DNA from: Pseudolabrys taiwanensis
Lineage (GTDB): Bacteria; Pseudomonadota; Alphaproteobacteria; Rhizobiales; Xanthobacteraceae
Direction: 5' to 3'
Assembly: GCF_003367395.1 (NCBI RefSeq)
Contig: NZ_CP031417.1
Span: 2,046,001-2,110,000 of the forward strand
DNA: 64,000 bases
Below are positions 5,996 through 56,550 of the stretch, in pieces. The notes under the pieces are model-generated. The model made no database searches and was not told the DNA's origin. It worked only from the letters and a program-made list of their open reading frames with translations. Numbering within the stretch: position 1 is the first letter of the stretch; every line of letters begins with the position of its first letter. A program made the translations under genes and the position numbers.

Positions 5996-6961
5996 TCATT
6001 TGATGCCGTCTTTGAAGATCGACGCAAGCTTGGCGGTGTCGTCGGCGATGGTCTTGTCGAACGCTTCCGGCGTCATCGACAGGGCTTCGACGCCTTGCGC
6101 GGCGAACTTCGCCTTGATGTCGTCGGTCATGATGATCTCGGCGACATCGCCATGCACTTTGGTGACGATGTGGCGCGGCGTTCCCGCGGGAGCCAGAAGG
6201 CCGAACCAGGAGTCGTATTTGAAGCCCGGCAGAGCGTCTTCCCCAATCGTGGGGAGGTCCTTCATGGTCGGGTTGCGCGTGGCGGTCGCCACGGCCAAAT
6301 CGCGGACCTTGCCGGCCTGCACCAGTTCGACGCCGACATTGATCGGCGTGAAGTACAACTGCGTGTCGCCGCGCACGACGCTGGTCACCGCCTCGGGCGC
6401 GCCTTTGTAGGGCACATGCAGAAGATCGATCTGTGCCGCGTCCTTGAACATCGCGGCGGCGATGAAGGTCGCGCTCGCGGGTCCCGGCGACGCGAAATTG
6501 AGCTTCCCGGGATTGGCCTTGGCGAGCGCGATGAACTCCTTCACCGATTTCGCAGGCGAATCCGGCGGCACGATCATCACCACCGGCACCGACGCGACCG
6601 GCGTCACAGCCGCAAAATCTTTCACCGGATCGAAGGTGAGGCTCTTGTTGACGACGCCGGCGATGGTGTGCCCGTTCGACGTCAACATCAGCGTGTAGCC
6701 GTCCGGTGCACTTTTGGCGACGGCCGTCGTCCCCGGCAGGCCCGGGCGATTCTCCACGACGACATTGTGCTTCCACTTCTCGGTCAGCTTTTCCGCAACG
6801 ATGCGCGCCAGGATGTCGGTGGCGCTGCCGGCCGAAAATGGAACGATGATGCGGACCGGCTGTTGGCTGGGGTAGCTTTGGGCGGCGGCCGGCGCCGCGA
6901 ACCCGAGCAGGCCGGCAGCTACCACCGCAACGCCGCGTAGCGTCCTCCACGTAAAGGTCAT
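5996..6961 (-). CDS. Tripartite tricarboxylate transporter substrate-binding protein (TctC/Bug family)
   Basis: A 321-residue periplasmic binding protein. It has a cleavable signal peptide (MTFTWRTLRG, hydrophobic core, cut near AAAAQS) and the Bug-family opening YPSQQPVRIIVPFSAGSATD. The start at ATG 6961 is fixed by AAGGGAGAA directly upstream; longer in-frame readings lack a signal sequence at the N-terminus. Bug proteins bind carboxylates and other small acids for TctAB carriers, but no tctA or tctB lies here, so this is one of the many orphan copies typical of this group. It is upstream of, and probably co-transcribed with, the alcohol dehydrogenase gene. Confidence 0.9.
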   Translation of the reverse strand: MTFTWRTLRGVAVVAAGLLGFAAPAAAQSYPSQQPVRIIVPFSAGSATDILARIVAEKLTEKWKHNVVVENRPGLPGTTAVAKSAPDGYTLMLTSNGHTIAGVVNKSLTFDPVKDFAAVTPVASVPVVMIVPPDSPAKSVKEFIALAKANPGKLNFASPGPASATFIAAAMFKDAAQIDLLHVPYKGAPEAVTSVVRGDTQLYFTPINVGVELVQAGKVRDLAVATATRNPTMKDLPTIGEDALPGFKYDSWFGLLAPAGTPRHIVTKVHGDVAEIIMTDDIKAKFAAQGVEALSMTPEAFDKTIADDTAKLASIFKDGIK

Positions 6962-7121
6962 TTTCTTCTCCCTTGGTATGTCCGGATGCGATTCCGGTTT
7001 CTGTTGTGAAACTGATATCATCGATGCGCGAGCGGGGGGAACTGGCCTGAAGCGCCAATCGTCGCGCCCGCGCCCACGAGGCCACTTCCAATGCCGGCTC
7101 CCAGGCTTTAGATCGAACGCC

Positions 7122-9767
7122 ATGCGCACAGACATTGCCCACACGATCCGCCTTAAAGACTATTTGCCGCCCGCGTGGCTGGTAGAGACCGTCCATCTCG
7201 ACGTGTCTCTGCATCCCTCGGAAACCAGAGTTCGGGCCAAGCTCGCGTTCAAGCCCAATCCAGAGTCGGCCTCCGCGCCATTGGTGCTCGACGGCGACGG
7301 GCTGTCTTTGATGTCGCTCAAGCTCGACGGTGCGCCGCTGCCTGCGGCCAATTTCGTCGCTTCGCCGAACCAGCTCACCATTCCACAGCCGCCGAACGGC
7401 CCGTTCACGCTCGAGATCGAGACGCTGGTCGACCCATCCGCCAACACCCAGCTCTCCGGCCTCTACCGCTCCAGCGACACCTATTGCACACAATGCGAGG
7501 CGGAAGGCTTCCGCCGCATCACTTATTTCCCCGACCGCCCGGACGTGATGGCGGTCTATACGACGCGCATCGAAGCGGACCGCCAGGAAGCGCCGGTGCT
7601 GCTCGCCAACGGCAATCTGGTCGACAGCGGCGCGCTCGACAACGGTCGTCACTACGCCGTCTGGCACGACCCGCATCCCAAGCCGTCATATCTCTTTGCC
7701 ATGGTCGGCGGCGATCTAGCCTGCGTCGAGGACAGCTTCCGCACGATGTCCGGCCGCGACGTGACGCTGCGCATCTATGTCGAGCACGGCAAGCAGGACC
7801 GCTGCGCCTATGCGATGGACTCGCTCAAGCGCTCCATGCGTTGGGACGAAGAGGCCTTCGGCCGCGAATACGACCTCGACATCTTCATGATCGTCGCCGT
7901 GTCAGACTTCAACATGGGCGCGATGGAGAACAAGGGCCTCAACGTCTTCAACGACAAATACGTATTGGCCAGCGCGGAGACCGCGACCGATGCCGACTTC
8001 GCGCATATCGAAGCGGTCATCGCGCATGAGTACTTCCACAACTGGACCGGCAACCGCATCACCTGCCGCGACTGGTTCCAGCTGTGCTTGAAGGAAGGCC
8101 TCACCGTTTTCCGCGACCATGAATTCTCTTCCGACATGCGCTCGCGCCCGGTGAAGCGCATCAGCGATGTGCGCAATTTGCGCGCCGCCCAGTTCATCGA
8201 GGACTCAGGCCCCCTCGCCCATCCGGTGCGACCGGAGGCCTACAAGGAGATCAACAACTTCTACACCACCACCATCTACGAGAAGGGCGCCGAGGTGGTG
8301 CGGATGGTGCACACCTTGCTCGGTCCGGAAAAATTCCGGGCCGGCATGGATCTCTATTTCCAACGTCATGACGGCGAAGCGGCCACCGTCGAGCAGTTCA
8401 TCCAGTGCTTTGCCGATGTAACCGGCCGCGACATCGCGCAATTCATGCTTTGGTACAGTCAGGCCGGCACGCCGCGGGTCACGGTGAGCACGCATCATGA
8501 CGCCGCCGCCGGAACCTATGCCCTCAGCCTCAAGCAAGCGGTACCGCCGACGCCGAACCAGCCGACCAAATCGCCAATGGTCATTCCGCTGGTGACGGGG
8601 CTCATCGGCCCGGACGGTCGCGACCTGCCGCTCGTCCTAGCGGACGGCGGCGTCGTCCGACGCGGCGTTCTAGTCCTGCACGAGGCCGAATGGACCTTCA
8701 CGTTCACCGGCATCACCGAGCGCCCCGTGCTGTCGATCAATCGCGGCTTCTCGGCGCCGATCGAGCTCGTCACCGACCTCTCTAACGACGACCTCGCCTT
8801 CCTTGCGGCGCATGACAGCGACCCGTTCAACCGATGGCAGGCCCTGCAAACCATCTCGATGCGGCTTCTGATCGAGAACGTAGCGTCGATCCGCGCCGGC
8901 AAGGCACCGCGCAGCGACGACAAACTGATGGTGGCGCTCGCCGCCCTCCTGGAGAATCCAGCACTCGAGCCGGCCTTCGTCGCGTTGGCGTTGGTACCGC
9001 CCGGCGAAGGCGACATCGCTCGGGAGATCGGCAGCGACATCGACCCGGACGCCATCTTCCAGGCCCGCACGGCGCTGCGGCGCGAGATCGGCACGCGTCT
9101 CGGCGCCGCCCTCTCCACGCTCTACGAGCGGTTGACGGTGCCCGGCGGCTATACGCCGGACGCCACCAGCGCCGGTCGCCGCGCGCTGCGCAATGTTGCG
9201 CTCGATCTGATGGCGGCGGGCGGCGACGCGTCCGCGATCACGTGGGCCGCGCGGCAGTACGATGCGGCCGACAACATGACCGACCGCATGGCGGCGCTTG
9301 CGACGTTGGCCTTGCACGGCGGACCGGAGGGTGAACGCGCGCTGGCCGACTTCTACAGTCGTTTCGAGGGCGATGCGCTGGTCATCGACAAGTGGTTCTC
9401 GTTGCAGGCGACGATCCCGCAGGCCGACACGCTCGACAAGGTGCGGGCGCTGACCAAGCACGCAGCCTTCTCGTTCGGCAATCCGAACCGCGTGCGCGCG
9501 CTCATTGGCGCTTTCGCCATGAGCAACGTGACGCAGTTCAACCGCGCCGACGGCGCCGGCTATGATTTCCTCGCCGAGACGTTGCTGGCGCTCGATCCGA
9601 AGAACCCGCAGGTCGCCGCGCGCATGGCGACGGCGTTCCGCACATGGCGTACGCTGGAGGAAGGCCGGCGCGGCAAGGCTGAAGCCGCCCTCAAGCGCAT
9701 CAAGGAAGGCGGCGAGCTCTCGCGCGACCTTGCCGACATCGTCGAACGTGCGCTGGCGCCGGTCTGA
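7122..9767 (+). CDS. pepN: Aminopeptidase N (M1 family)
   Basis: An 881-residue M1 metallopeptidase, matching the length of Escherichia coli PepN (870). The zinc motif HEYFH (H302, E303, H306) with the distal ligand in LKEGLTVFRD, and the exopeptidase motif GAMEN near 266, are all intact. It cleaves N-terminal residues from peptides in the cytoplasm during protein turnover. No signal peptide is seen. I chose ATG 7122 because MRTDIAHTIRLKDY matches the usual start of alphaproteobacterial PepN; an in-frame ATG at 6978 would add a low-quality 48-residue extension. It diverges from tctC and is followed by a strong terminator. Confidence 0.95.
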   Translation: MRTDIAHTIRLKDYLPPAWLVETVHLDVSLHPSETRVRAKLAFKPNPESASAPLVLDGDGLSLMSLKLDGAPLPAANFVASPNQLTIPQPPNGPFTLEIETLVDPSANTQLSGLYRSSDTYCTQCEAEGFRRITYFPDRPDVMAVYTTRIEADRQEAPVLLANGNLVDSGALDNGRHYAVWHDPHPKPSYLFAMVGGDLACVEDSFRTMSGRDVTLRIYVEHGKQDRCAYAMDSLKRSMRWDEEAFGREYDLDIFMIVAVSDFNMGAMENKGLNVFNDKYVLASAETATDADFAHIEAVIAHEYFHNWTGNRITCRDWFQLCLKEGLTVFRDHEFSSDMRSRPVKRISDVRNLRAAQFIEDSGPLAHPVRPEAYKEINNFYTTTIYEKGAEVVRMVHTLLGPEKFRAGMDLYFQRHDGEAATVEQFIQCFADVTGRDIAQFMLWYSQAGTPRVTVSTHHDAAAGTYALSLKQAVPPTPNQPTKSPMVIPLVTGLIGPDGRDLPLVLADGGVVRRGVLVLHEAEWTFTFTGITERPVLSINRGFSAPIELVTDLSNDDLAFLAAHDSDPFNRWQALQTISMRLLIENVASIRAGKAPRSDDKLMVALAALLENPALEPAFVALALVPPGEGDIAREIGSDIDPDAIFQARTALRREIGTRLGAALSTLYERLTVPGGYTPDATSAGRRALRNVALDLMAAGGDASAITWAARQYDAADNMTDRMAALATLALHGGPEGERALADFYSRFEGDALVIDKWFSLQATIPQADTLDKVRALTKHAAFSFGNPNRVRALIGAFAMSNVTQFNRADGAGYDFLAETLLALDPKNPQVAARMATAFRTWRTLEEGRRGKAEAALKRIKEGGELSRDLADIVERALAPV

Positions 9768-45768: not shown

Positions 45769-46044
45769 ATGAAGAAGCTTCTGTTGAGCGCGGCCGTCGC
45801 CGCGGTTCTGGCGACCCCCGCTTTCGCGCAGTCGTACAGCCCGGACTTCGGCACCGGCAACATCAATCCGCCGGTTGCTTCGCTGCAGTCGAATGAAGCG
45901 GGCAGCGCCTTCGCTTACGCGCCGCGCGTTCACGGCCGCATGATGCGTGACCCGAATGCCGTCTATTCCTACGGCCAGTATCGCGGCTCCGATCCGAGCC
46001 CGTATGTGCGCGAGGAACTGCGTCGCGATTATCCGCAGAACTAA
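45769..46044 (+). CDS. Small secreted hypothetical protein
   Basis: A 91-residue protein with a clean signal peptide (MKKLLLSAAVAAVLATPAFA, cut before QSYSPD). The mature 71 residues are rich in Tyr, Pro, Asn and Arg: SPDFGTGNINPP, PNAVYSYGQYRGSDPSPYVR. ATG 45769 is supported by GGAGACAAAG upstream; an ATG 12 bp earlier is less well placed. Such short exported proteins are frequent in Bradyrhizobium relatives; function unknown. A strong terminator follows. Confidence 0.82.
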   Translation: MKKLLLSAAVAAVLATPAFAQSYSPDFGTGNINPPVASLQSNEAGSAFAYAPRVHGRMMRDPNAVYSYGQYRGSDPSPYVREELRRDYPQN

Positions 46045-46080
46045 GATCGCCGAAAGGCGTTCTGCCCTCTTGGGCCAAAG

Positions 46081-46106
46081 CCCCGGCCATCGCGGCCGGG
46101 GTTTTT
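46081..46106 (+). terminator. Rho-independent terminator
   Basis: CCCCGGCC (46081-46088), loop ATCGC and GGCCGGGG (46094-46101) followed by TTTTT. It ends the small secreted-protein transcript 37 bp after its stop and may also serve the convergent MFS gene. Confidence 0.92.
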
Positions 46107-46115
46107 ATATTGTGT

Positions 46116-47669
46116 TTATCTGGCGACGTTCGGAATCGAGGTCGCGGGCGCGGTCGGCGCTTCGGCGGCGGCACTCGGCGGGCCCTGCAGCGGCCGCTCT
46201 TCCAAAGCGATCAGGAAGGCCATGCCGAAGGCCAGCACCAGCGCGCAGGCGAGGAACACGAAGCGGAACGCAACGACGAGAACGTCGACCGAAGCCGAGC
46301 GCGCCAGCGTTTCCACCGCCGCGCCGGTTTCACCGCCCAAGCCGCCGAGCACGATGGCGCCGAGAATCGCCACCACGAGCGATGAGAACAGCGCGCGGAA
46401 GAAATTGGCGGCGCCCGTGGCGATGCCCATCTGCGCATGCGGCACGGAATTCTGCAGACAGACGGTCGACACCGGGAACACGGTTCCCAAGCCCGAGCCG
46501 ATCACGGCGAGCATCACCAAGACCAGCCACATCGGCATCGCGGCCGGCCAGATCGCCAGCGAACCGAGCGCGAGAATGGCGACGGTCGAGCCGAGCAGCG
46601 GCACCCGCTTGTAGTGCGTGACGCGCATCATCAAACGGCCGACGATGGTCGAACCCAGCACCGACGACGCCATCAAGGGAATGAGCGCGAGGCCCGATTG
46701 GCTCGCCGACAGATGCAGCACGACTTCGAAATAGAGCGGCACGAAGATGGTCATGCCGACCAGCGCGCCCATGGTGCAGGCGCCGGTCAGCGCGGCGCTG
46801 CGCACCACCGGATTGCCGAGCACGGACAAAGGCAGGAACGGCTCGGCCGCCGCGGCCAGGCGCCACGCGAACAGGATCCACAGCACCGCCGACAGCAGGA
46901 ACAGCGCGCCGATCTCGACGGAGATCCACGCATATTCGCGCCCGCCCCACGACAGCGCGAGCAACAGCGCGACCGACGCGCTGATCATCAAGAGCGCGCC
47001 GATGACGTCGAGCCGATGCTTGCGCGGATGATACGGCACGAGCTTGAGCGACTGCGAGGTGACACCGAGCGCGATGAGGCCGACCGGCACGTTGATCCAG
47101 AAGATCAGCGACCAGTCGAAATGTTCGGTGAGAAAGCCGCCGAGCACGGGACCGCCGACCGAGGAGGTCGCGAACACCGCGGCGATATAGCCCTGATAGC
47201 GGCCGCGTTCGCGCGGTGACACCACGTCGGCGATGATGGTCTGCGCCAAGGCCATCAGGCCGCCGCCGCCGGCGCCCTGCAGCGCGCGGGCAAAGATGAG
47301 CGCGCCCATCGACGGCGACAGCGCGCAGGCGACCGAGCCGGCGATGAACAGTCCGATCGCGGTCAGCATGATCACGCGCCGGCCGTAGACGTCCGAGAGC
47401 TTGCCGTAGAGCGGCGTCACCGCCGTGCCGGTGAGCAGATAGGCCGTGACGATCCAGGCGAGATTGCCGAGGTCGTTGAAGTGGCGGCCGATGGTCGGCA
47501 AGGCCGTGGCGACGATGGTCTGATCGAGCGCCCCGAGGAACATCGACAGCATCAGGCCGAAGATGATGCGCAGGATCTCCGGATGGCTGAGGACGACGCG
47601 CCCCGCCCCGTCTTTGGCATGGGCCTTGGCGGGCTTGTGAGGGTGCGGATGCTGCGGACGGGGGTTCAT
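46116..47669 (-). CDS. MFS multidrug exporter, EmrB/QacA (DHA2) family
   Basis: A 517-residue exporter with about 14 membrane helices. The DHA2 hallmarks are seen: LGALDQTIVATALPTIG in TM1, the loop 2-3 motif GKLSDVYGRRVIM, and motif C-like ATSSVGGPVLGGFL in TM5. The N-terminus is a His/Pro/Lys-rich tail (HPHPHKPAKAHAK). ATG 47669 is chosen; the next in-frame start upstream is a TTG. It is divergent from an FAD monooxygenase gene. Likely drug or toxic-compound efflux. Confidence 0.92.
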   Translation of the reverse strand: MNPRPQHPHPHKPAKAHAKDGAGRVVLSHPEILRIIFGLMLSMFLGALDQTIVATALPTIGRHFNDLGNLAWIVTAYLLTGTAVTPLYGKLSDVYGRRVIMLTAIGLFIAGSVACALSPSMGALIFARALQGAGGGGLMALAQTIIADVVSPRERGRYQGYIAAVFATSSVGGPVLGGFLTEHFDWSLIFWINVPVGLIALGVTSQSLKLVPYHPRKHRLDVIGALLMISASVALLLALSWGGREYAWISVEIGALFLLSAVLWILFAWRLAAAAEPFLPLSVLGNPVVRSAALTGACTMGALVGMTIFVPLYFEVVLHLSASQSGLALIPLMASSVLGSTIVGRLMMRVTHYKRVPLLGSTVAILALGSLAIWPAAMPMWLVLVMLAVIGSGLGTVFPVSTVCLQNSVPHAQMGIATGAANFFRALFSSLVVAILGAIVLGGLGGETGAAVETLARSASVDVLVVAFRFVFLACALVLAFGMAFLIALEERPLQGPPSAAAEAPTAPATSIPNVAR

Positions 47670-47858
47670 GGCGCGGAGCAATGCCGTGCTTCGCGCCCGG
47701 AGGCAATGGCGGGGCGTGGGGGACCGCTATGCACCCCAATACCTGCCCCCCAAAGATGGGCAGACGGCCCGCCCCACCCGCCGCCGCGCCGCCGGCTTGC
47801 TCCCGGCGCCCGACAGAAGCTATTGAACCCCCTGCTCTCTAGGATCGGCCGGGACCTC

Positions 47859-49157
47859 ATGACGGACAATCGCGTAATCATCGCCGGCGGCGGCATTGGC
47901 GGCCTTGCGACCGCCCTGACGCTGCATCAGATCGGCGTGCCTTGCATCGTGTACGAGGCGGTGCGCGAAATGCGCCCGCTCGGCGTCGGCATCAACATGC
48001 AGCCGAACGCCGTGCGCGAGCTGTACGACCTCGGCTTCACCGCCGCCGATCTCGACCGCGTCGGCCTGCCGGCCAAGGAGTGGGCGCTGGTCGGCCTCAA
48101 CGGCAACGACATCTATGCCGAGCCGCGCGGCCTCGACGCCGGCTACAACTGGCCGCAATACGCGGTGCATCGCGGCCGCTTCCACATGATGCTGCACGAC
48201 AAGGCGGTGGCGCGCATGGGCGCCGGCGCCGTCCAGCTCGGCAGCCGCGTCACCGGCTATCGCAAGAACGCCGACGGCGGCGTCACCGCGCTGATCGAAC
48301 ACGCCGACGGCACCACGTCGCAGCAACGCGGCGCGCTGCTGATCGCGGCCGACGGCATCCACTCGGCCATCCGCGCGCAGATGCATCCGCACCAGCCGCC
48401 GATCCACTGGGGCGGCGCGGTGATGTGGCGCGGCACGACCTGGGGCAAGCCGATCCGCTCGGGTGCCTCCTTCGTCGGCCTCGGCACGCACCGCCAGCGC
48501 GTCGTGTTCTATCCGATCTCGCATCCCGATCCGCGGACCGGCCTGTCGATGATCAACTGGATCGCCGAAGTGACGATGGACAATGCCGAAGGCTGGAAGC
48601 AGGCCGGCTGGTTCCGCCAGGTGCAAACCGCCGACTTCGCGCATCACTTCGACAGCTGGGTGTGGGATTGGCTCGACGTGCCGGCGCTGATCAAGGGCGC
48701 CGACGTCGCTTTCGAAAACCCGATGATCGACCGCGATCCGGTGCCGACCTGGCAGGACGGCCCGGTGCTGCTGCTCGGCGACGCCGCGCATGCGATGTAC
48801 CCGACCGGCTCGAACGGCGGCAGCCAGGCGATCGTCGACGCGCGCGTGCTCGGCGCCACGATGGTGGAGCACGGCGCGACGCCCGACGCGCTCGCCGCTT
48901 TCGACGAGAAACTGTGCGGCCCGATCTCGCAGCTGATCCTGCGCAACCGCGGCGCCGGCCCGTTCGGCCTGTTGAACCTGGTCGACGAACGCTGCGGCGG
49001 CACCTTCGACAACATCGACGACGTCATCCCGCCGCAGGAGCGCGCCGCGTTCATGGCCGGTTACAAGGCGGCCGCCGGCTTTGCCATCGAGGCGCTGAAC
49101 ACGGCGCCGCCGACCATCGCCAAGGGCGCCAAGGCGCGGGCGCTGCAGACGGCTTAA
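47859..49157 (+). CDS. FAD-dependent aromatic monooxygenase (UbiH/salicylate-hydroxylase-like)
   Basis: A 432-residue class A flavoprotein hydroxylase: dinucleotide-binding GGGIGGLATALTLHQIG at the N-terminus, the DG motif LIAADGIHSAIR near 160, and the GD motif GDAAHAMYPTGSNGGSQAI near 305. It hydroxylates an aromatic or heteroaromatic substrate with NAD(P)H and oxygen. The ATG at 47859 has a weak site (CGGGACC). Its stop overlaps the convergent HTH gene stop by 3 bases. It diverges from an EmrB-type exporter, a pairing often linked to handling aromatic toxins. Confidence 0.9.
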   Translation: MTDNRVIIAGGGIGGLATALTLHQIGVPCIVYEAVREMRPLGVGINMQPNAVRELYDLGFTAADLDRVGLPAKEWALVGLNGNDIYAEPRGLDAGYNWPQYAVHRGRFHMMLHDKAVARMGAGAVQLGSRVTGYRKNADGGVTALIEHADGTTSQQRGALLIAADGIHSAIRAQMHPHQPPIHWGGAVMWRGTTWGKPIRSGASFVGLGTHRQRVVFYPISHPDPRTGLSMINWIAEVTMDNAEGWKQAGWFRQVQTADFAHHFDSWVWDWLDVPALIKGADVAFENPMIDRDPVPTWQDGPVLLLGDAAHAMYPTGSNGGSQAIVDARVLGATMVEHGATPDALAAFDEKLCGPISQLILRNRGAGPFGLLNLVDERCGGTFDNIDDVIPPQERAAFMAGYKAAAGFAIEALNTAPPTIAKGAKARALQTA

Positions 49158-49963
49158 GCGCCGGCGGGCGCGTCCGCCCGCTGCACGGCTTCGAGATAAT
49201 CGCTCGCGGCGGCCAGCGCCAAACGCAAGGCGCGCTCGGTCGTTTCGTCGCCGGGGCACGGCGGCACCTTCGGCCGCCGCCAGGGATCGCCGCCCCAGTC
49301 CTTGGCCAGGCGCTCGGCCTTACGCCAGGCGCGATGATCGTCCTTGAACTGCGTGAGGTTCTTCAGCGCGCGCTCCACCGCCCGCCACGCGCGCAGGCGC
49401 GCGTCCGCCTGATGCACGCGCATCGCCTCCTGCTGCGCTTCGCGCGCCAGCGGGTCCGCCGCATCGCAGCGCGCCTGCGCCTCGGCGCGGCCTTGCGCAT
49501 CGAGCGCCTTGAGCCCGGTCGGAAACGGCTGGCCGCTATCGTCGCGGCGGATGAAACGGCCGCCGGACCCTTTGGCCGGCACGCGACCTGCCGTAGACGC
49601 CCAGCGCCGGCCGCGATTATGCGCCGCCGCGGCGCGCCCGCGCGGCAGCACGGCATAGCGCTTGGTCCAGCCGTGCTTCTCGACATACTTATAAAGCGTG
49701 CGCTCGGTCACGCCGGCGATCGCCGCAATCTCGCGCACCGGCACGCTCGTCTCTTCGTACAGCGCTCTGATGCGCGCGGTGAGGTCTTGCGGAGGCACGG
49801 CCGTTCCACCCGCCACGGCGCCCTTCTCCCCTCCCCCCGCGCGCGCAGCGCGTGGTGGGGAGGGGTCGGGGGTGGGGGGCGCTTGCTTGGCAACCGCCCT
49901 CTCCCGCTTCAATTCCCCATACAGTTCGCGCGCCGCCGCGCGCACGGACGTGCGTTGCGTCAT
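49154..49963 (-). CDS. HTH protein resembling the first gene of Bradyrhizobium-type gene-transfer-agent loci, with a repeat inserted in frame
   Basis: A 269-residue basic protein. A helix-turn-helix is visible at about 65-105 (ALYEETSVPVREIAAIAGVT, then ERTLYKYVEKHGWTKRY), the layout of terminase-small-subunit/GTA g1-like HTH proteins (IYEET.IPV..IA.R.GI...T.....WGW.KR) as I remember them. Residues about 32-55 (PPTPDPSPPRAARAGGG) are encoded by a palindromic repeat that appears to have inserted without breaking the frame. The C-terminal half is Ala/Arg-rich helix. No terminase gene is adjacent. A consensus promoter lies 60 bp upstream. Confidence 0.7.
   Translation of the reverse strand: MTQRTSVRAAARELYGELKRERAVAKQAPPTPDPSPPRAARAGGGEKGAVAGGTAVPPQDLTARIRALYEETSVPVREIAAIAGVTERTLYKYVEKHGWTKRYAVLPRGRAAAAHNRGRRWASTAGRVPAKGSGGRFIRRDDSGQPFPTGLKALDAQGRAEAQARCDAADPLAREAQQEAMRVHQADARLRAWRAVERALKNLTQFKDDHRAWRKAERLAKDWGGDPWRRPKVPPCPGDETTERALRLALAAASDYLEAVQRADAPAGA
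49828..49865. repeat. Palindromic repeat element inside a coding region
   Basis: CCCCTCCCC (49828-49836) and GGGGAGGGG (49857-49865) enclose a GCGCGCGC/GCGCG inner stem; G-rich runs follow to about 49880. This is the sequence type of abundant intergenic alphaproteobacterial repeats whose translation reads PTPDPSPP. Here it lies in frame inside the HTH gene. Confidence 0.7.
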
Positions 49964-49996
49964 GGCCTTCAAACCCACTTGTCGGAGAATGTAGGA

Positions 49997-50025
49997 AAAT
50001 TAGCCGGGCAGCGTCACGGTGTCAA
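49997..50025 (-). promoter_or_regulatory. Sigma-70-like promoter of the HTH gene, same motif as at 33303-33331
   Basis: On the minus strand TTGACA (50025-50020), a 17-bp spacer and TAATTT (50002-49997) make a near-consensus promoter reading into the HTH gene, whose ATG is 33 bp beyond the -10 box. The 18-bp block 50008-50025 matches 33314-33331 at 16 positions and includes the partial palindrome CAGCGT-c-ACGgTG. Confidence 0.65.
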
Positions 50026-50320
50026 GAACGATCGTCTGCAGCCTGCGCCCCCCTCGACTCGACCGCGAAGCTTGTCTTGCGGCGTTCGGCGCGGTCTTCG
50101 AGCCAGCCGTAGAACCGGAGGCGAGATCGAAAACGCAATAAACCTCGCATTATCACGGCCACCCACAACAACAACGAGAATCAGACTTGACCACCCGAAA
50201 TACGGGTGATGCAGTATACGTGAGTTAGCCCCACTTTTGCGAACGACAAAACCGGGCAGGCAATCCTCATAAGCACACTGAATACCGACTGATCTCCTCC
50301 TTGAAAACGTAAGGACGATG
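50026..50320. other. Boundary and leader of the AT-rich TIR gene island
   Basis: Composition falls from GC-rich to clearly AT-richer near 50110. A short hairpin CACCCG/CGGGTG (50192-50208) is present; TTGACC at 50187 lacks a -10 box at usable spacing, so I name no promoter. AAGGA (50311-50315) is the ribosome site for the TIR gene and can pair with TCCTT just upstream. Confidence 0.5.
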
Positions 50321-52831
50321 ATGAAGGCCTTTCTCAGTCACTCCTCACGCGACAAAGCAACTGTTGAGCAGGTCGCTGCCCAACTCGGGGCTGCAAATGT
50401 TGAACTGGACTCCGAGACCTTTGACCGCGGATTATTGAACGTCACGGCCATTCAGGACGCACTTCGCAGGTCGTCATTATTCATACTTTTTCTCTCGAAA
50501 GATGCTTTGGCTTCCGGAGTAGTTCGATATGAAGCTCTACTCGCTCAAGAGTTATTTGCACGAGGCATCGTCGAACGATTTCTCGTGATCTGCCTTGATG
50601 AAAATTCGTTCTCCTCCGCCGACGACAACTGGAAAACCTTCAATTTTGTACGCAAAGCAACATCTCCGCAGTCCATTGCAAGATTAATCCAGCACCAAAT
50701 AATTCTGTTGCAATCAAAATTATCGGGAGCCGCACAGCCATTTGTAGGCCGATTGAAAGAACTTGGCGAAACAAAGGAGAAGCTAATAGACCCAAAGCTG
50801 ACTCGCCTTCGCGGTATTTACGTGTCCGGATTCGCCGGGACAGGCCGAAGAACATTCGCCCGCCGACTATTCAGCGACATATACCCCTCTGTTATTTCCG
50901 TATTTCCTGAGATCTCCATTGAAGAGTTAGATGGACTCGAAGAGATTTACAGAAAGCTCTCCGAGAAACTCGCACCCAACTCGACGCTATCGGCCTATCG
51001 AACACGTATACTAGCCTTTGCTACAGAGACCGAAGCGGGCAAAGAGCACCTAATTGTCCAGCTATTAGAACGAGCGATTGATACCCGCGAAGCAGTACTC
51101 ATTATCGACCACGGCGGACTGCTAGATCGTGATGGACAATTCCAGTCACCGGTGCGGCAAATTATTGCACGACTCCCACCCCAACGACGCCCATGCGTAG
51201 TTTTTATCGCCGAACGAATGATGCCACAGGCTCGTCAGCGAGATACCGAAGGCTTGATATTTTGTCGCCTTTCGTCACTTAGCTTTGATGAAACCAAGCA
51301 ACTCATCGGCCTAATGCTCCGCAACTCCGGCATCACCTATACGGAGAACGATCTCGCTGAACTGGCCAACCTGAGTGATGGACACCCGTTTAATGTCGCC
51401 TTTCTTGTGGAGGCGGTGAAGCACTATGGCATTAAGATCATACTAGGAGATCCTTCAGAAATCACGCAATGGAAACGGCGCAGAGCATCTGATTTCCTGA
51501 CCAAGATCGCATTCTCACCGGAAGAGCAAAAAATAATCTCAGCGCTTAATCACTTCAATGTTTTAGATTTTGAAATACTAGTCCAAGTCTCCGGGGGAGA
51601 CAGCGTCAAAGCTTCAAATGCCCTCGCAAAACTAATAGATTACCACGTCGTTGAGATCGACACCGACACTTTCTCAATTGCCCTCCCTTTGCGCATCGCC
51701 GTCCGCAGAGACAAGCGTTTTGATCTATCTGGCGAGCCTTTACGAGCACTATTAAGCGCGGTCGGCGGAATACTCACAGCCAAGGCTGAGAGCGACGAGA
51801 TCGCGGCTCCTATGGTCGAGGGAGCCATCCTCGCACGGCTCCAAGAAGGAGGCGAGATACCGACACTGTTCTCGGCATTTCTATTGCCGTCACATCTCGT
51901 TTGGCTAGCCCGCCGACGATACGATGCAAAAAAGTTCGATGAGAGCATTTCCCTTGCTCGAAGCGCACTTAATGACTCTGGAAGATTGTCACCGGCTGGC
52001 AGGGTTGAGGCCAGCAGAATTCTATGTCTTGCGTCCGCGAGACTGGGGCAGGAGGCGAACTTTCAGTATGGGATTGACATACTGAAGGCCAACGCGAACG
52101 ACTCGTGGGCGCGAAGCAACCTTAATTTTCTTCTCGGATTTATGGCTCGGATGAGAGGTCACCTTCCCGAAGCTGAAACCTTTATGAGAAAAGCCTACGA
52201 CGACGCTCCGGGAAACTTCTCGGCAGCGCATGGGCTCGCGTCAATATGTCTCGTTCGTGGAAACCTGTCGGATGCAGAGAAATTTGCGCGCAAGGCTTTT
52301 GAGGTCGCCCCAGACAACGCATACGTCCTTGATGTGCTCTTGAGAATTCTTTTCGGCGACGACCCACATACTCTCAAAAGGAACGAATCAGAGATCAACT
52401 ACTTACTGGAACGACTAAAAGCCGTTGGAGAAGAAGAAGGAAAATCCTTTTATACAACCCGACGCGCAGATTACGAGTTCAGGACGGGCAATCTCAGCGA
52501 GGCCTGCAAGCTAATCGACGAGGCTGCCCACAAAACCCCAGGCATATTCAACGTCCACGAACTGAGGGCAAAGATATATTTAGAACGAGGAAACAAAACG
52601 ATCGCCGCTGAAGAAATACAGAAGATGCGTGACGTCGTGTATCGCCCGAACACGTCAGAGCGCCTAACTAATTTGAGAGTCTTACTCGAGACCGAAGCGT
52701 CATACTATTCTGCCAGTGGCATGTTCGACGAGGCCAAGAAAATTTACAAAAGAAAAGACGTTTTCACTGACGTCGAAGCTACGGCTGCAGTTCGAAAAAT
52801 TGAGATCGAGCAAGGCTACCGAAACCGTTGA
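50321..52831 (+). CDS. TIR-STAND NTPase-TPR protein, probable single-gene immune (anti-phage) factor
   Basis: An 836-residue protein in an AT-rich island. A TIR domain covers about 1-125: KAFLSHSSRDKATVEQVA, then SSLFILFLSKDALAS and a candidate NADase glutamate in VVRYEALLAQ (E71 from this start). A STAND/NACHT-like NTPase follows (about 135-370): P-loop GFAGTGRRT with Arg where the catalytic Lys is expected, Walker B VLIIDHGG, arginine-bearing VVFIAERMM, and the STAND GHP motif in LSDGHPFNVAF. A winged-helix region leads into TPR-like repeats (about 520-830; for example LPEAETFMRKAYDDAPGN and LSDAEKFARKAFEVAPDN). This is the domain order of NLR-like prokaryotic immune sensors in which ligand binding to repeats activates an NAD-degrading TIR. 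AAGGA favours ATG 50321 over ATG 50318. Function is inferred. Confidence 0.83.
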   Translation: MKAFLSHSSRDKATVEQVAAQLGAANVELDSETFDRGLLNVTAIQDALRRSSLFILFLSKDALASGVVRYEALLAQELFARGIVERFLVICLDENSFSSADDNWKTFNFVRKATSPQSIARLIQHQIILLQSKLSGAAQPFVGRLKELGETKEKLIDPKLTRLRGIYVSGFAGTGRRTFARRLFSDIYPSVISVFPEISIEELDGLEEIYRKLSEKLAPNSTLSAYRTRILAFATETEAGKEHLIVQLLERAIDTREAVLIIDHGGLLDRDGQFQSPVRQIIARLPPQRRPCVVFIAERMMPQARQRDTEGLIFCRLSSLSFDETKQLIGLMLRNSGITYTENDLAELANLSDGHPFNVAFLVEAVKHYGIKIILGDPSEITQWKRRRASDFLTKIAFSPEEQKIISALNHFNVLDFEILVQVSGGDSVKASNALAKLIDYHVVEIDTDTFSIALPLRIAVRRDKRFDLSGEPLRALLSAVGGILTAKAESDEIAAPMVEGAILARLQEGGEIPTLFSAFLLPSHLVWLARRRYDAKKFDESISLARSALNDSGRLSPAGRVEASRILCLASARLGQEANFQYGIDILKANANDSWARSNLNFLLGFMARMRGHLPEAETFMRKAYDDAPGNFSAAHGLASICLVRGNLSDAEKFARKAFEVAPDNAYVLDVLLRILFGDDPHTLKRNESEINYLLERLKAVGEEEGKSFYTTRRADYEFRTGNLSEACKLIDEAAHKTPGIFNVHELRAKIYLERGNKTIAAEEIQKMRDVVYRPNTSERLTNLRVLLETEASYYSASGMFDEAKKIYKRKDVFTDVEATAAVRKIEIEQGYRNR

Positions 52832-52844
52832 AGAAACCGTTGAA
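52821..52844. repeat. Perfect tandem 12-bp duplication over the TIR gene stop codon
   Basis: GAAACCGTTGAA occurs twice head to tail at 52821-52832 and 52833-52844; the first copy contains the stop TGA (52829-52831). The second copy offers a duplicate TGA in another frame. It is probably a slippage duplication. Confidence 0.85.
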
Positions 52845-52934
52845 ATTGCCTCAACCTAGTGCAGTTTTTCATCAAGAAATTACGTCCCAACTTTCAGTAA
52901 CAAAGTGTACTAGTGCTCTGGTGAGCGGTCGCCA

Positions 52935-53417
52935 TCATCGCGCCCTGCGCTTTGTTCCCCTCGGCCACTTCCCCGGCCACCCAACAATGTAATCGACGAG
53001 CTTCTCGTCCGGCACGTCCTCTTCGCTGGCGCTGACGCGGCCGCGCACGGAGATGCCGGCCTTGTGCACCGTCTCCTGCGTGCCGGAGACCAAGGGGTGC
53101 CACCAGGGCAGGTCCTTGCCCTGCGCGATCAGCCGATAGCCGCAGGTCGGCGGCAGCCAGGACAGGCGCGAGACGTTGCGCCAGGTGAGCTTGACGCAGT
53201 CCGACACCTTCTTCTGCCGGTTCTTGTAGTCGATGCAGCGGCAGGTCTCGCCGTCCAGCAGCACGCAGCCGACGTCGGTGTACACCGTCTCGTTGGTGTC
53301 CTCGTCGATCAGCTTGTTGAGGCAGCAGCGCCCGCAGCCGTCGCACAGGCTCTCCCACTCCGCGGCGGTCATCTCGCTCATGCGCTTGCGCCGCCAGAAG
53401 GGCGTCTCGTCCGGCAT
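52935..53417 (-). CDS. YcgN/UPF0260 family cysteine-cluster protein
   Basis: A 160-residue protein of the YcgN (UPF0260) family, with the cysteine pattern [24 protein letters not shown] and PPTCGYR that suggests metal or Fe-S binding. The opening [20 protein letters not shown] is the family's. ATG 53417 with AAGGGA upstream is preferred; an in-frame ATG at 53444 also has a purine-rich site. Function of the family is not established. It diverges from the PBP1A-type gene. Confidence 0.88.
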
Positions 53418-53657
53418 CCGAATCCCTTGGGTTGAGGTCTCCATATAGCCCCCGCCGGGCCCGGCCGCGAGGCGCGGGCGGGGAGTTTCCCCCTTCCCCG
53501 GCGGCCGTCCGGCCCTATTTTGCCGCGATTGGCGTTCACTTTGGCGCCAGGTTCCGCCTTCCCGCCATGGCCGGGCGGCGCCCGATCGGCTAAAATGCGG
53601 CAACGCGGCGGGCCTTGCGGCCGGCCGCCGTCCCTTTGCAAACCAGAGCCTTCAGCC

Positions 53658-55898
53658 TTGCGCGACCTGTTCCCCCGGGATTGGAAGCCCAATCTCAAGA
53701 AGTTCTTCCTGGCGATCGACGCCTGGGTGGATTTCAGCCTGTTCCGGAGCCTGTCCGGCGCGCGCGAGACCTATGGGCGTTTCTCCACCTTCATGGACCG
53801 CTTCCACGTCGCCGGCTGGCGGCGGTGGCTGACGGAGTTGCTCTCGGAAGGCGCCACGCTCGGCACCGCCGGCGCGATCCTGATGCTGGCGCTCGCCATC
53901 CCCGCCTTCCGCGAGACCTCGGACGACGACTGGCTGAAGAAGTCGGAGCTCGCCGTGACCTTCCTCGACCGCTACGGCAACGAGGTCGGCTCGCGCGGCA
54001 TCAAGCACAACGACTCGGTGCCGCTGGAGGAGTTTCCCGATCACCTGATCAAGGCCGTGCTGGCGACCGAGGACCGGCGCTTCTACGACCATTTCGGCAT
54101 CGACATCGCCGGCACGGCGCGCGCCTTCGTGACCAATGCGCGCGCCGGCGGCGTCGTGCAGGGCGGCTCGTCTCTGTCGCAGCAGCTCGCCAAGAACCTG
54201 TTCCTGTCGAACGAGCGCACGCTCGAGCGCAAGGTGAAGGAGGCGTTCCTGGCGCTGTGGCTCGAGGCGCGGCTGACCAAGAACGAGATTTTGAAGCTGT
54301 ATCTGGATCGCGCCTATATGGGCGGCGGCGCCTTCGGCGTCGACGCGGCGGCGCAGTATTACTTCAACAAGTCGGCGCGCGACGTCGATCTCGCGGAAGC
54401 CGCGATGCTCGCCGGCCTGTTCAAGGCGCCGACCAAGTTCTCGCCCAACGTCAACCTGCCGGCCGCGCGCGCCAGAGCCAACGTCGTGCTCGACAACCTC
54501 GTCGACACCGGCTTCATGACCGAGGGTCAGGTCTTCGGCGCCCGCCGCCACCCCGCCACCCCCGTCGACCGCCGAGACGACCGCGCGGCGAACTATTATC
54601 TCGACTATGCCTTCGACGAGATGAAGAAGCTCGTCGACACCTTTCCGAAGTCGATGACCGAGCGCGTCTTCGTCGTGCGCACCGCGCTCGACACCGGCAT
54701 GCAGAAGGCGGCGGATGCCGCGGTCGAGAACTCGCTGCGTCAGTACGGCCAGGAGTATCACGCCAAGCAGGCGGCGGCGGTGCTGATGGAAGTCGACGGC
54801 TCGGTGCGCGCCATGGTCGGCGGCCGCGACTACGGCGCCAGCCAGTTCAACCGCGCCACCGACGCCATGCGTCAGCCCGGTTCGTCGTTCAAGCCTTACG
54901 TCTACGCCACCGCCTTGATGCACGGCTTCAAGCCGACCTCGATCGTCGTCGACGCGCCGATCTGTCTCGGCAACTGGTGCCCGCACAACTACGGCAACGG
55001 CTATGCCGGCTCGATGACCCTGATCCAGGCGCTGACACGCTCGATCAACACCATCGCGGTGCGCCTGTCGGTCGCCGTCGGCGATGGCAATCCCAAGCTC
55101 GGCCGCTCGCGCATCGTCAAGCTCGCGCACGACATGGGCATCAAGAGCCAGTTGCCGGACACGCCGTCGCTGCCGATCGGCGCCGACGCCGTCACCGTGC
55201 TCGAACATGTCGGCGCCTACGGCACCTTCCCCAATCTCGGCAAGGCCGTCACGCCGCACGCGATCCTGGAAGTGCGCACCGGCGACGGTCAGACGATCTG
55301 GCGCTACGATCGCGACGGGCCCAAGCCGCGCCAGGTCATGCCGCCCAAGGTCGCGCAAGACATGATCACGATGATGAACAGCGTGGTCGAAAACGGCACC
55401 GGCCGGCGCGCGCGCCTCGACGGCATCGCGGCCGCCGGCAAGACCGGCACCACCAACGCTTATCGTGACGCCTGGTTCATGGGTTACACGGGCAACTTCG
55501 TGTGCGGCGTCTGGTTCGGCAACGACGACTACACGTCGACCAACCGCATGACCGGCGGCGCGCTGCCGGCAATGACGTGGCATGGGATCATGGAATACGC
55601 ACACCAAGGCATGGAGTTGAAGCAATTGCCGGGCGTGCCGGTGCCGCAGGTCCGCCAGCCTGTCGTCGCCGAAGCCAAATCGAAGTCGGACGCACCGCCA
55701 CCGCCTGTTCGTCCGGCCGTGCTGACGCGGCGCGGGGCCGACATTCTGGTGCGCGTCGAGCGCCTGATGGAAGACGCCAACCGTGCCCTCGGCCCGACGC
55801 CGCCAACGGCGACGACCGAGAAGAAGAAACAAGCCGAGGCCGAAAAGCCGGATGCCCTCGCCTCCGCCCTGGAGGGCAAGGCTTTCGGTCGTAACTGA
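53658..55898 (+). CDS. Class A penicillin-binding protein (PBP1A-type transglycosylase/transpeptidase)
   Basis: A bifunctional peptidoglycan synthase of about 746 residues. A membrane helix near 70-83 precedes the GT51 glycosyltransferase domain with catalytic Glu in LATEDRRFYDHFG (E138) and QGGSSLSQQLAKNLF. The transpeptidase domain has SxxK in GSSFKPY (about 410), SIN (SxN) and KTGT (about 595). The start is a TTG at 53658 giving MRDLFPRDW, the remembered family start; an ATG at 53595 is the alternative. The C-terminus is a Pro/Lys/Glu-rich tail. It works at the periplasmic face in cell-wall growth. Confidence 0.92.
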   Translation: MRDLFPRDWKPNLKKFFLAIDAWVDFSLFRSLSGARETYGRFSTFMDRFHVAGWRRWLTELLSEGATLGTAGAILMLALAIPAFRETSDDDWLKKSELAVTFLDRYGNEVGSRGIKHNDSVPLEEFPDHLIKAVLATEDRRFYDHFGIDIAGTARAFVTNARAGGVVQGGSSLSQQLAKNLFLSNERTLERKVKEAFLALWLEARLTKNEILKLYLDRAYMGGGAFGVDAAAQYYFNKSARDVDLAEAAMLAGLFKAPTKFSPNVNLPAARARANVVLDNLVDTGFMTEGQVFGARRHPATPVDRRDDRAANYYLDYAFDEMKKLVDTFPKSMTERVFVVRTALDTGMQKAADAAVENSLRQYGQEYHAKQAAAVLMEVDGSVRAMVGGRDYGASQFNRATDAMRQPGSSFKPYVYATALMHGFKPTSIVVDAPICLGNWCPHNYGNGYAGSMTLIQALTRSINTIAVRLSVAVGDGNPKLGRSRIVKLAHDMGIKSQLPDTPSLPIGADAVTVLEHVGAYGTFPNLGKAVTPHAILEVRTGDGQTIWRYDRDGPKPRQVMPPKVAQDMITMMNSVVENGTGRRARLDGIAAAGKTGTTNAYRDAWFMGYTGNFVCGVWFGNDDYTSTNRMTGGALPAMTWHGIMEYAHQGMELKQLPGVPVPQVRQPVVAEAKSKSDAPPPPVRPAVLTRRGADILVRVERLMEDANRALGPTPPTATTEKKKQAEAEKPDALASALEGKAFGRN

Positions 55899-55971
55899 TT
55901 AGCCGCCTGCCCTCCGGCGGCGTAGTCTCCCACCCTCGAATCAATTTCTTGACCCTGCCAGCGGATCGATC

Positions 55972-56550
55972 GTGCGGCTGCTTTTCGGAACGCTGTTTGT
56001 CCTCGCGGTCGGCGCCGTCATCGGCCTGAGCGGCACCTATTTCGCGTTGAAGCGCGGCGCCGCGTTCGGCGCCCTCACGATTGGCGCGTGGACGGCTTGG
56101 CCGAAGACCGGAACGGTGGACGCCGACCCGTACGCACGCGCTTCGATCGCCCGCATCGGCCTCCTGCCAACCGCGGTCGGCGACGGCATCACTTTCGCCG
56201 CCGAATCGGACGACAAGGGCAAGCCGCTCGACGGCCGCTGCGATGTGGTCGTCGCCGGCATCACGCCGTCGGCGCGTTTCTGGACCATCACCCTCTACAA
56301 TCGCGAGGGCGAACTCGCGGCCAATTCGGTCGGGCGCCACGGCTTCACCAGCCAGGAAATCGTTCGCGGCGCCGACGGCAGCTTCTCCATTGTCGCCGCG
56401 CCGCGGGCTCAGCCCGGCAACTGGCTGCCGACCGGCGGCATTGAGCGCTACACCTTGGTGCTGCGCCTCTACGACACGGCCGTCGGCGTCTCGACGCGCG
56501 CCGGCCGCGAGGTGCCGATGCCATCCGTCACGACCCGGGGTTGCCCATGA
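55972..56550 (+). CDS. DUF1214 domain membrane-anchored protein
   Basis: A 192-residue protein starting at GTG 55972, with an N-terminal membrane helix (LLFGTLFVLAVGAVIGLSGTYFAL) and a DUF1214 domain, recognisable by DADPYARASIARIGLLP, ARFWTITLYNREGELAAN and the closing aromatic/basic strand. It overlaps the DUF1254 gene by ATGA. The two domains are often found together in one longer protein; here they are separate genes. Function unknown, envelope location likely. Confidence 0.85.
   Translation: MRLLFGTLFVLAVGAVIGLSGTYFALKRGAAFGALTIGAWTAWPKTGTVDADPYARASIARIGLLPTAVGDGITFAAESDDKGKPLDGRCDVVVAGITPSARFWTITLYNREGELAANSVGRHGFTSQEIVRGADGSFSIVAAPRAQPGNWLPTGGIERYTLVLRLYDTAVGVSTRAGREVPMPSVTTRGCP

Follow-up and report, generated by a model that had tools for sequence, protein, structure and literature searches.

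A gene in a 64,000-nucleotide stretch of Pseudolabrys taiwanensis DNA (NZ_CP031417.1, positions 2,046,001 to 2,110,000; hereafter the window, whose coordinates are used throughout) encodes a divergent protein of the TIR-NLR family, a known group of anti-phage receptors encoded by single genes. In its nucleotide-binding loop the Walker A lysine is replaced by arginine, and we find that this change, which would be expected to disable the site, is a near-fixed rule (158 of the 163 alignment rows that are not gapped at this position) across a wide bacterial NLR family that has an experimentally active member. The main value of the finding lies in recognizing this P-loop as a family-wide rule; the gene itself adds a new, divergent TIR-NLR in a variable chromosomal site. 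An earlier note on this DNA, made from the sequence alone, had read the gene as a single-gene, NLR-like anti-phage sensor, which its family membership supports, and had entertained a new kind of system, which is not supported, the kind being already known.

Assignment to the TIR-NLR family

The protein matches the PADLOC TIR-NLR model over residues 1-735 (profile positions 1-728 of 824; 115.8 bits, E=6.1e-34). In the Protein Data Bank, 9m0n/9umd (824 aa, E=7.4e-30) is the sole relative with the full architecture, the other 25 matches listed covering the TPR part; 9m0n was absent from the best 50 Foldseek matches, and no publication on 9m0n/9umd was found in the open literature, by identifier or by topic. 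The TIR-STAND-TPR architecture proposed in the earlier note is confirmed by the TIR_2 match, the STAND and winged-helix region and the C-terminal part, where TPR_2, TPR_14 and TPR_19 score above the Pfam cut-off, and a TIR fold, whose absence the earlier note had named as a refutation, is found: an AlphaFold2 model of the domain (predicted local distance difference test score 90) matches the NADase TIRs of SPARTA and AbTir, and that of RPS4, by structure comparison. Foldseek matches of the query include the plant TIR-NLRs RPP1 and ROQ1 together with Apaf-1/CED-4; the VIA-align list holds mostly TPR arrays, plus MalT (8bob) and Apaf-1, and is uninformative on the TIR part. Glu 72 is presumably catalytic, as in known TIR NADases, and we take the FVGR motif to contact nucleotide as it does in Apaf-1-like STANDs. 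The gene is single copy in its own genome, and a Shine-Dalgarno-like AAGGA was seen by eye upstream of it, at 50311-50315.

A search of E. coli with a Pseudoalteromonas homologue gave a partial DNA match in 26 of 5426 genomes. In the one record of the 26 that was examined, strain 2D (L104), the relative sits between psu, the phage polarity suppression gene, and the integrase gene int of a P4-like satellite, beside tRNA-Leu, as the sole annotated gene between the two; its product scores 1878 bits against the PADLOC TIR-NLR model and 1781.7 bits against the near-identical 9m0n over 824 of 824 residues. This psu-int slot of P4-like satellites is where Rousset 2022 described TIR-NLR, reporting that the P4-encoded system protects against P2-like and virulent phages and proposing TPR sensing, oligomerization dependent on nucleoside triphosphate and NAD+ degradation (PMC9122126). 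Aligned to the strain 2D protein, the P. taiwanensis protein is 24% identical across 691 columns, the alignment ending near residue 669. With the TIR-NLR of P4-like satellites (PDLC03015) it shares the TIR-STAND-TPR layout in a single gene, a similar size (837 aa against 824 aa), the catalytic Glu, FVGR, a GxGRR[ST] P-loop (GLIGVGRRSF in strain 2D) and the Walker B Asp; it differs in Walker B (DHGG against DDGC) and in location, a chromosomal variable site between genes for an MFS transporter and a YcgN family protein rather than the psu-int slot. The reading of the P. taiwanensis gene as a defence gene is well supported.

An arginine P-loop across the family

Canonical STAND P-loops read GxxGxGK[ST], and a lysine-to-arginine change in Walker A disables most P-loop NTPases. 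The P. taiwanensis protein has GFAGTGRRT where a canonical Walker A would read GxxxxGK[ST], and where a canonical Walker B would read h4D[DE] it keeps D264 followed by His, a position not conserved as an acid across the family. Is this a defect of one gene or a property of its relatives? Our alignment began with 166 rows, namely the query, 106 database proteins, some of which duplicate a locus, and 59 loci whose open frames reach at least 400 aa; removal of L066 for poor coverage left 165. Of 65 loci, seven had shorter frames and were excluded, among them L061 (GKTS) and L032 (GRRS). Position 177 is Arg in 158 rows, Lys in 5 and a gap in 2, and among the 152 rows below 90% mutual identity the counts are 146, 4 and 2. 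All 163 rows that have a residue at position 176 carry Gly, and position 178 is R in 142, K in 7, S in 6, H in 4, G in 2, Q and A in 1 each and a gap in 2. The lysine-to-arginine change pointed out in the earlier note is thus real but not peculiar to this gene, being the rule rather than an oddity in the full set (Arg 158, Lys 5), in the reduced set (146/150) and in the strain 2D protein. A quirk or sequencing error of the query gene is ruled out, Arg being family-wide. Because it is conserved in this way, the Arg P-loop is, as the alignment indicates, a constrained family character and not a local defect, and the predicted nucleotide site as a whole is under strong constraint yet non-canonical, with Arg for Lys, usually Arg for Ser/Thr, and a Walker B in which a second acid is not conserved. 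When one NLR shows a K-to-R change in its P-loop, this should not be taken as decay.

Further sets of relatives carry the same residue. On predicted viral contigs, 18 of 20 relatives, some of them near copies, reach the P-loop, and all 18 have Arg. A second alignment, A2, of 33 STAND regions (17-33% identical to the query) has Arg at 177 throughout, the Lys clade having been excluded from it, and five more matches from a phylum search, made with a profile built without that clade, carry Arg as well. Only rows carrying Arg at position 177 entered the conservation ranking, which fixes the rank of R177 by construction. In a tree whose root was placed on the Lys rows by choice, a single split separates Arg from Lys, and 72 Arg rows span 11 phyla. 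The Lys clade (L050, L056, L057, L058, L060 and the short L061; Walker A GKSS, GKGA, GKAA) consists of TIR-STAND proteins separate from the main family, in Acidobacteria, SAR202 and a Pseudomonadales metagenome-assembled genome. In four of its five long members the Walker B Asp has been lost (NVQHW), a near mirror image of the main family.

An effector swap on the Arg-type STAND was considered and rejected: a search with residues 137-475, limited by a length range and a word filter, returned 30 proteins, 25 with Pfam TIR_2, and of the five others (P0009, P0028, P0036, P0111 and P0112) the three that were read, P0036, P0111 and P0112, start inside the TIR. No account of the Arg P-loop was found in the open literature, subscription papers lying outside the search.

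A proposed one-way switch and its alternatives

How might a STAND with such a site work? Our preferred explanation for the whole protein, to which we give a probability of about 0.82, combines phage-sensing TPRs, STAND oligomerization, NAD+ cleavage by the TIR and a hydrolysis-poor, one-way nucleotide switch. The C-terminal TPR array would most likely bind a phage product and thereby release the STAND/winged-helix module, which would oligomerize and gather the TIR domains; these, through E72, would cleave NAD+ and halt the infected cell. Nucleotide bound in the altered site would be hydrolysed little or not at all and would act structurally or as a one-way switch. We suggest binding without hydrolysis because the Lys, the Ser/Thr and the second acid are missing, and by analogy with other P-loop ATPases in which the Walker A Lys has been mutated to Arg. 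More tentatively, and with the odds against it, TIR-NLRs may be the first STAND/NLR lineage with a working switch built on an obligatory Walker A Arg, usually paired, without the Mg-binding Ser/Thr; such a site might hold ADP, ATP or another anionic ligand independently of Mg and free of hydrolysis, so that activation would be one-way by design. NAD+ or a product of the protein's own TIR is conceivable as that ligand. It has long been asked whether an NLR needs nucleotide hydrolysis, binding or neither; a natural protein, instead of an artificial mutant, now allows a direct test in E. coli.

The same residues could be read as a dead nucleotide site, the STAND serving as a mere scaffold while the TPR and winged-helix parts alone switch. 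The site has lost its Lys and, in most members, the Mg-binding Ser/Thr, and it lacks a conserved second acid; inactive STANDs (iSTAND), some with an N-terminal TIR, are known from MoxR-vWA conflict systems (PMC7159879). A dead site would be expected to drift, yet Arg 177 and Gly 176 (158/163 and 163/163) and the Arg of FVGR, the Pro of GHP and the Walker B Asp (Table 1) are near-invariant, and on this account we consider a dead site unlikely. Could Arg instead stand in for Lys in an ordinary ATPase? The remainder of the site is conserved, and PaAvs5 has one acid in Walker B and yet requires Walker A and B for immunity (PMC12931631), so STANDs tolerate variant sites; as most members also lack the Mg-holding Ser/Thr (142 of 163 rows have Arg), however, ordinary ATPase function seems improbable. 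We are similarly skeptical that the TIR makes a signalling nucleotide, an isomer of cyclic ADP-ribose, for a partner effector instead of simply destroying NAD+: the query TIR has weak PADLOC similarity to the Thoeris protein ThsB (E=0.0011), and a match to ThsB_TIR is seen in the E. coli relative too (E=1.8e-6), but PADLOC recognized no partner among 10 neighbouring ORFs, and the E. coli gene stands alone between psu and int. Nor is the gene at all likely to be an AT-rich passenger without a defence role, such as a stress or regulated-death protein; its single copy and a site that also takes non-defence cargo, for example an acyltransferase, would fit a passenger, whereas membership in a family with a tested defence system, carriage on mobile elements and patchy distribution speak against one.

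Several observations weigh against our preferred explanation as a whole. That the site binds nucleotide but does not hydrolyse it is drawn from sequence; the allele tested in Rousset 2022 may differ from the strain 2D protein; and 24% identity to the latter leaves room for changed function. A tblastn search of 50,697 phage records gave no match. The 10 neighbouring window ORFs produced two weak PADLOC matches only (mad1, 2.9e-5; a desaturase model, 3.8e-4), so the locus is not a defence island here. Around homologues, 86 ORFs near 10 loci, from 202 picked mechanically in 14 loci, gave matches at E<=1e-15 to 17 PADLOC families, each matched by a single member; mad2 and mad3 are among them, as are eight models of the HamB helicase and two of ZorB. 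The 108 ORFs of 10 arbitrary alphaproteobacterial stretches gave only mad2 (1) and mad3 (2); we count this enrichment as weak because test and control differ in phylum make-up. Defence-type genes occur at the same site in some relatives, and the neighbourhoods of homologues are weakly enriched in such families.

Other receptors share parts of this design. Avs (AVAST) proteins such as PaAvs5 have a STAND sensor, C-terminal repeats, an N-terminal effector and an anti-phage role in common with the query, although PaAvs5 bears a Sir2 effector and a canonical Walker A, GPAGSGKT, with an essential Lys (PMC12931631) where the query has a TIR and an Arg P-loop; the Avs5 and TIR-NLR lineages therefore differ at the P-loop. 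No Avs-named model occurs among the five PADLOC matches of the query at E<=10, HMMER filters dropping weak matches. The bNACHT proteins, reportedly described as bacterial NLRs by Kibby 2023, follow the same NLR-like single-gene anti-phage logic with a NACHT-type NTPase; no NACHT-named family is among the query's Pfam matches at E<=1 or the same five PADLOC matches. Plant TIR-NLRs (RPP1, ROQ1) and Apaf-1/CED-4 share the nucleotide-switch module, and the plant proteins alone the TIR effector, but their P-loop keeps the canonical Lys and their sensors are of LRR or WD40 type, unlike the TPR sensor of the query. The iSTAND proteins of MoxR-vWA ternary systems, STANDs predicted to be inactive and sometimes with an N-terminal TIR, belong to three-component systems with MoxR and vWA genes (PMC7159879), whereas the query gene stands alone and its altered site is conserved; a Pfam scan of the 10 neighbouring window ORFs gave no MoxR or vWA match.

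Distribution, composition and the MFS-YcgN site

The gene is thinly spread. In counts that include the own genome, a relative was found in 3 of 43 genomes of the genus (the own genome, one 40% identical at another genomic place and one 23% identical), and a STAND profile search matched 3 of 198 family genomes, a sample in which G007, which carries a copy, is not among the matches, and 6 of 398 phylum genomes. Given so few genomes at each level, the TIR-NLR gene is not a core gene; its patchy, non-syntenic occurrence is the reverse of the syntenic core gene that the earlier note had named as evidence against a defence role. Relatives occur on predicted viral contigs and on a Zymomonas plasmid. 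On this plasmid, Zymomonas mobilis pZMOB03 (L105; 31.7 kb), the relative lies at 6001-8520 and is 36% identical; in the same 14.5 kb stretch a gene for an ATP-binding protein lies upstream, and about 5.6 kb downstream there is a toxin-antitoxin pair of RelB/YafQ type.

The G+C of the ORF is 0.499 against 0.658 (sd 0.016) in the other segments measured, which bears out the earlier note's low value relative to the neighbours. What this composition means is a different matter. In all 29 loci with long flanks (at least 20 kb) the TIR-NLR gene lies below its flanks, by 9.9 points on average, in a set that includes four Lys-class or TIR-only matches (L050, L057, L060, L064) and in which TIR-NLR genes were the only genes measured; the gap runs from 1 to 20 points and exceeds 3 points in 26 of 29 (for example L035 and L047), with flank G+C from 0.31 to 0.70. 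Low G+C is a trait of the TIR-NLR family in AT-rich to GC-rich hosts, and being found in 29 of 29 loci it is ruled out as proof of recent acquisition; for the query it is no specific evidence of a recent AT-rich donor. These genes appear to remain AT-rich after transfer.

Table 1. Features of the TIR-NLR gene and of its surroundings, in window coordinates; rows are those of the 165-row alignment.
Feature	Position	Strand	Detail
TIR-NLR gene	50318..52831	+	837 aa; 836 aa from second ATG at 50321
TIR domain, residues 1-138	50318..50731	+	Pfam TIR_2, E=2.8e-11
E72, predicted catalytic Glu of TIR NADase	50531..50533	+	Glu in 164/164 rows with a residue, 1 row gapped
STAND NTPase and winged-helix region, residues 139-470	50732..51727	+	
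FVGR motif, residues 142-145, N-terminal to P-loop	50741..50752	+	R145 Arg in 164/164 rows with a residue
Altered P-loop GFAGTGRRT, residues 171-179	50828..50854	+	R177 for Lys, R178 for Mg-binding Ser/Thr
Walker B region VLIIDHGG, residues 260-267	51095..51118	+	D264 Asp in 159/165 rows
GHP motif, residues 355-357	51380..51388	+	P357 Pro in 165/165 rows
Helical TPR sensor region, residues 520-837	51875..52828	+	
Left anchor, MFS transporter	46116..47681	-	Pfam MFS_1, 1.2e-54
ORF with FAD-binding monooxygenase domain, inside interval	47481..49157	+	FAD_binding_3, 1.4e-20, residues 131-301
Small HTH protein, inside variable site	49154..49978	-	weak HTH_7 match
Right anchor, YcgN family cysteine cluster protein	52935..53603	-	NCBIfam NF003501, 4.2e-72
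Class A penicillin-binding protein ORF, next after YcgN	53520-55898	+	Transgly, Transpeptidase

We compared the YcgN surroundings of 16 relatives, one stretch from each, and took a further stretch that holds the G007 copy. Both anchors are present in 11 of the 16, with 115 to 6384 bp between the aligned parts, and the MFS anchor falls outside the stretch in the other five; about 5.25 kb separates the anchor ORF ends in the own genome, and the sites of G007 (115 bp) and G018 (182 bp) are near-empty. Cargo beside YcgN comprises an HNH endonuclease (G022), a RES-domain protein (G031), DUF3800 (G004), an acyltransferase (G020) and, near a contig end, the C-terminal part of LmuB (G009). Pfam was run on seven cargo ORFs and PADLOC on five, two of which had PADLOC matches at E<=0.01. 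The MFS-YcgN interval is a variable site that takes up defence-type single genes among others. Integration traces were sought at its borders and rejected: the window has no tRNA, no convincing repeat brackets the gene, and positions 46000-56000 have no Rfam match at gathering scores.

Within the P. taiwanensis interval, the match of the FAD ORF to the relatives' stretches is limited to its first ~35 codons, where it overlaps the MFS gene, and a relative of the small HTH protein occurs in 6 of the 16 YcgN stretches, in differing places, two of the cases being a 45-residue match only. The HNH gene at the YcgN site of G022 (L089:6458-7345) appears by eye to have a shortened relative in G025 (L094:5676-6200), again at the YcgN site; the shorter gene has no Pfam or PADLOC match. 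About 1 kb past the G007 TIR-NLR, a 54-bp segment (G007:C1:1629565-1629618) is 81% identical, in inverted orientation, to window positions 49986-50039, some 280 bp upstream of the query gene; the two genes are at different genomic places, and the match is possibly a shared bordering element. Inside the HTH gene, at 49806-49892, a short element coding for PTPDPSPPRAARAGGGE-like residues recurs, among the matches listed, at several places in the own genome and in relatives from the genus, a dispersed repeat within a reading frame.

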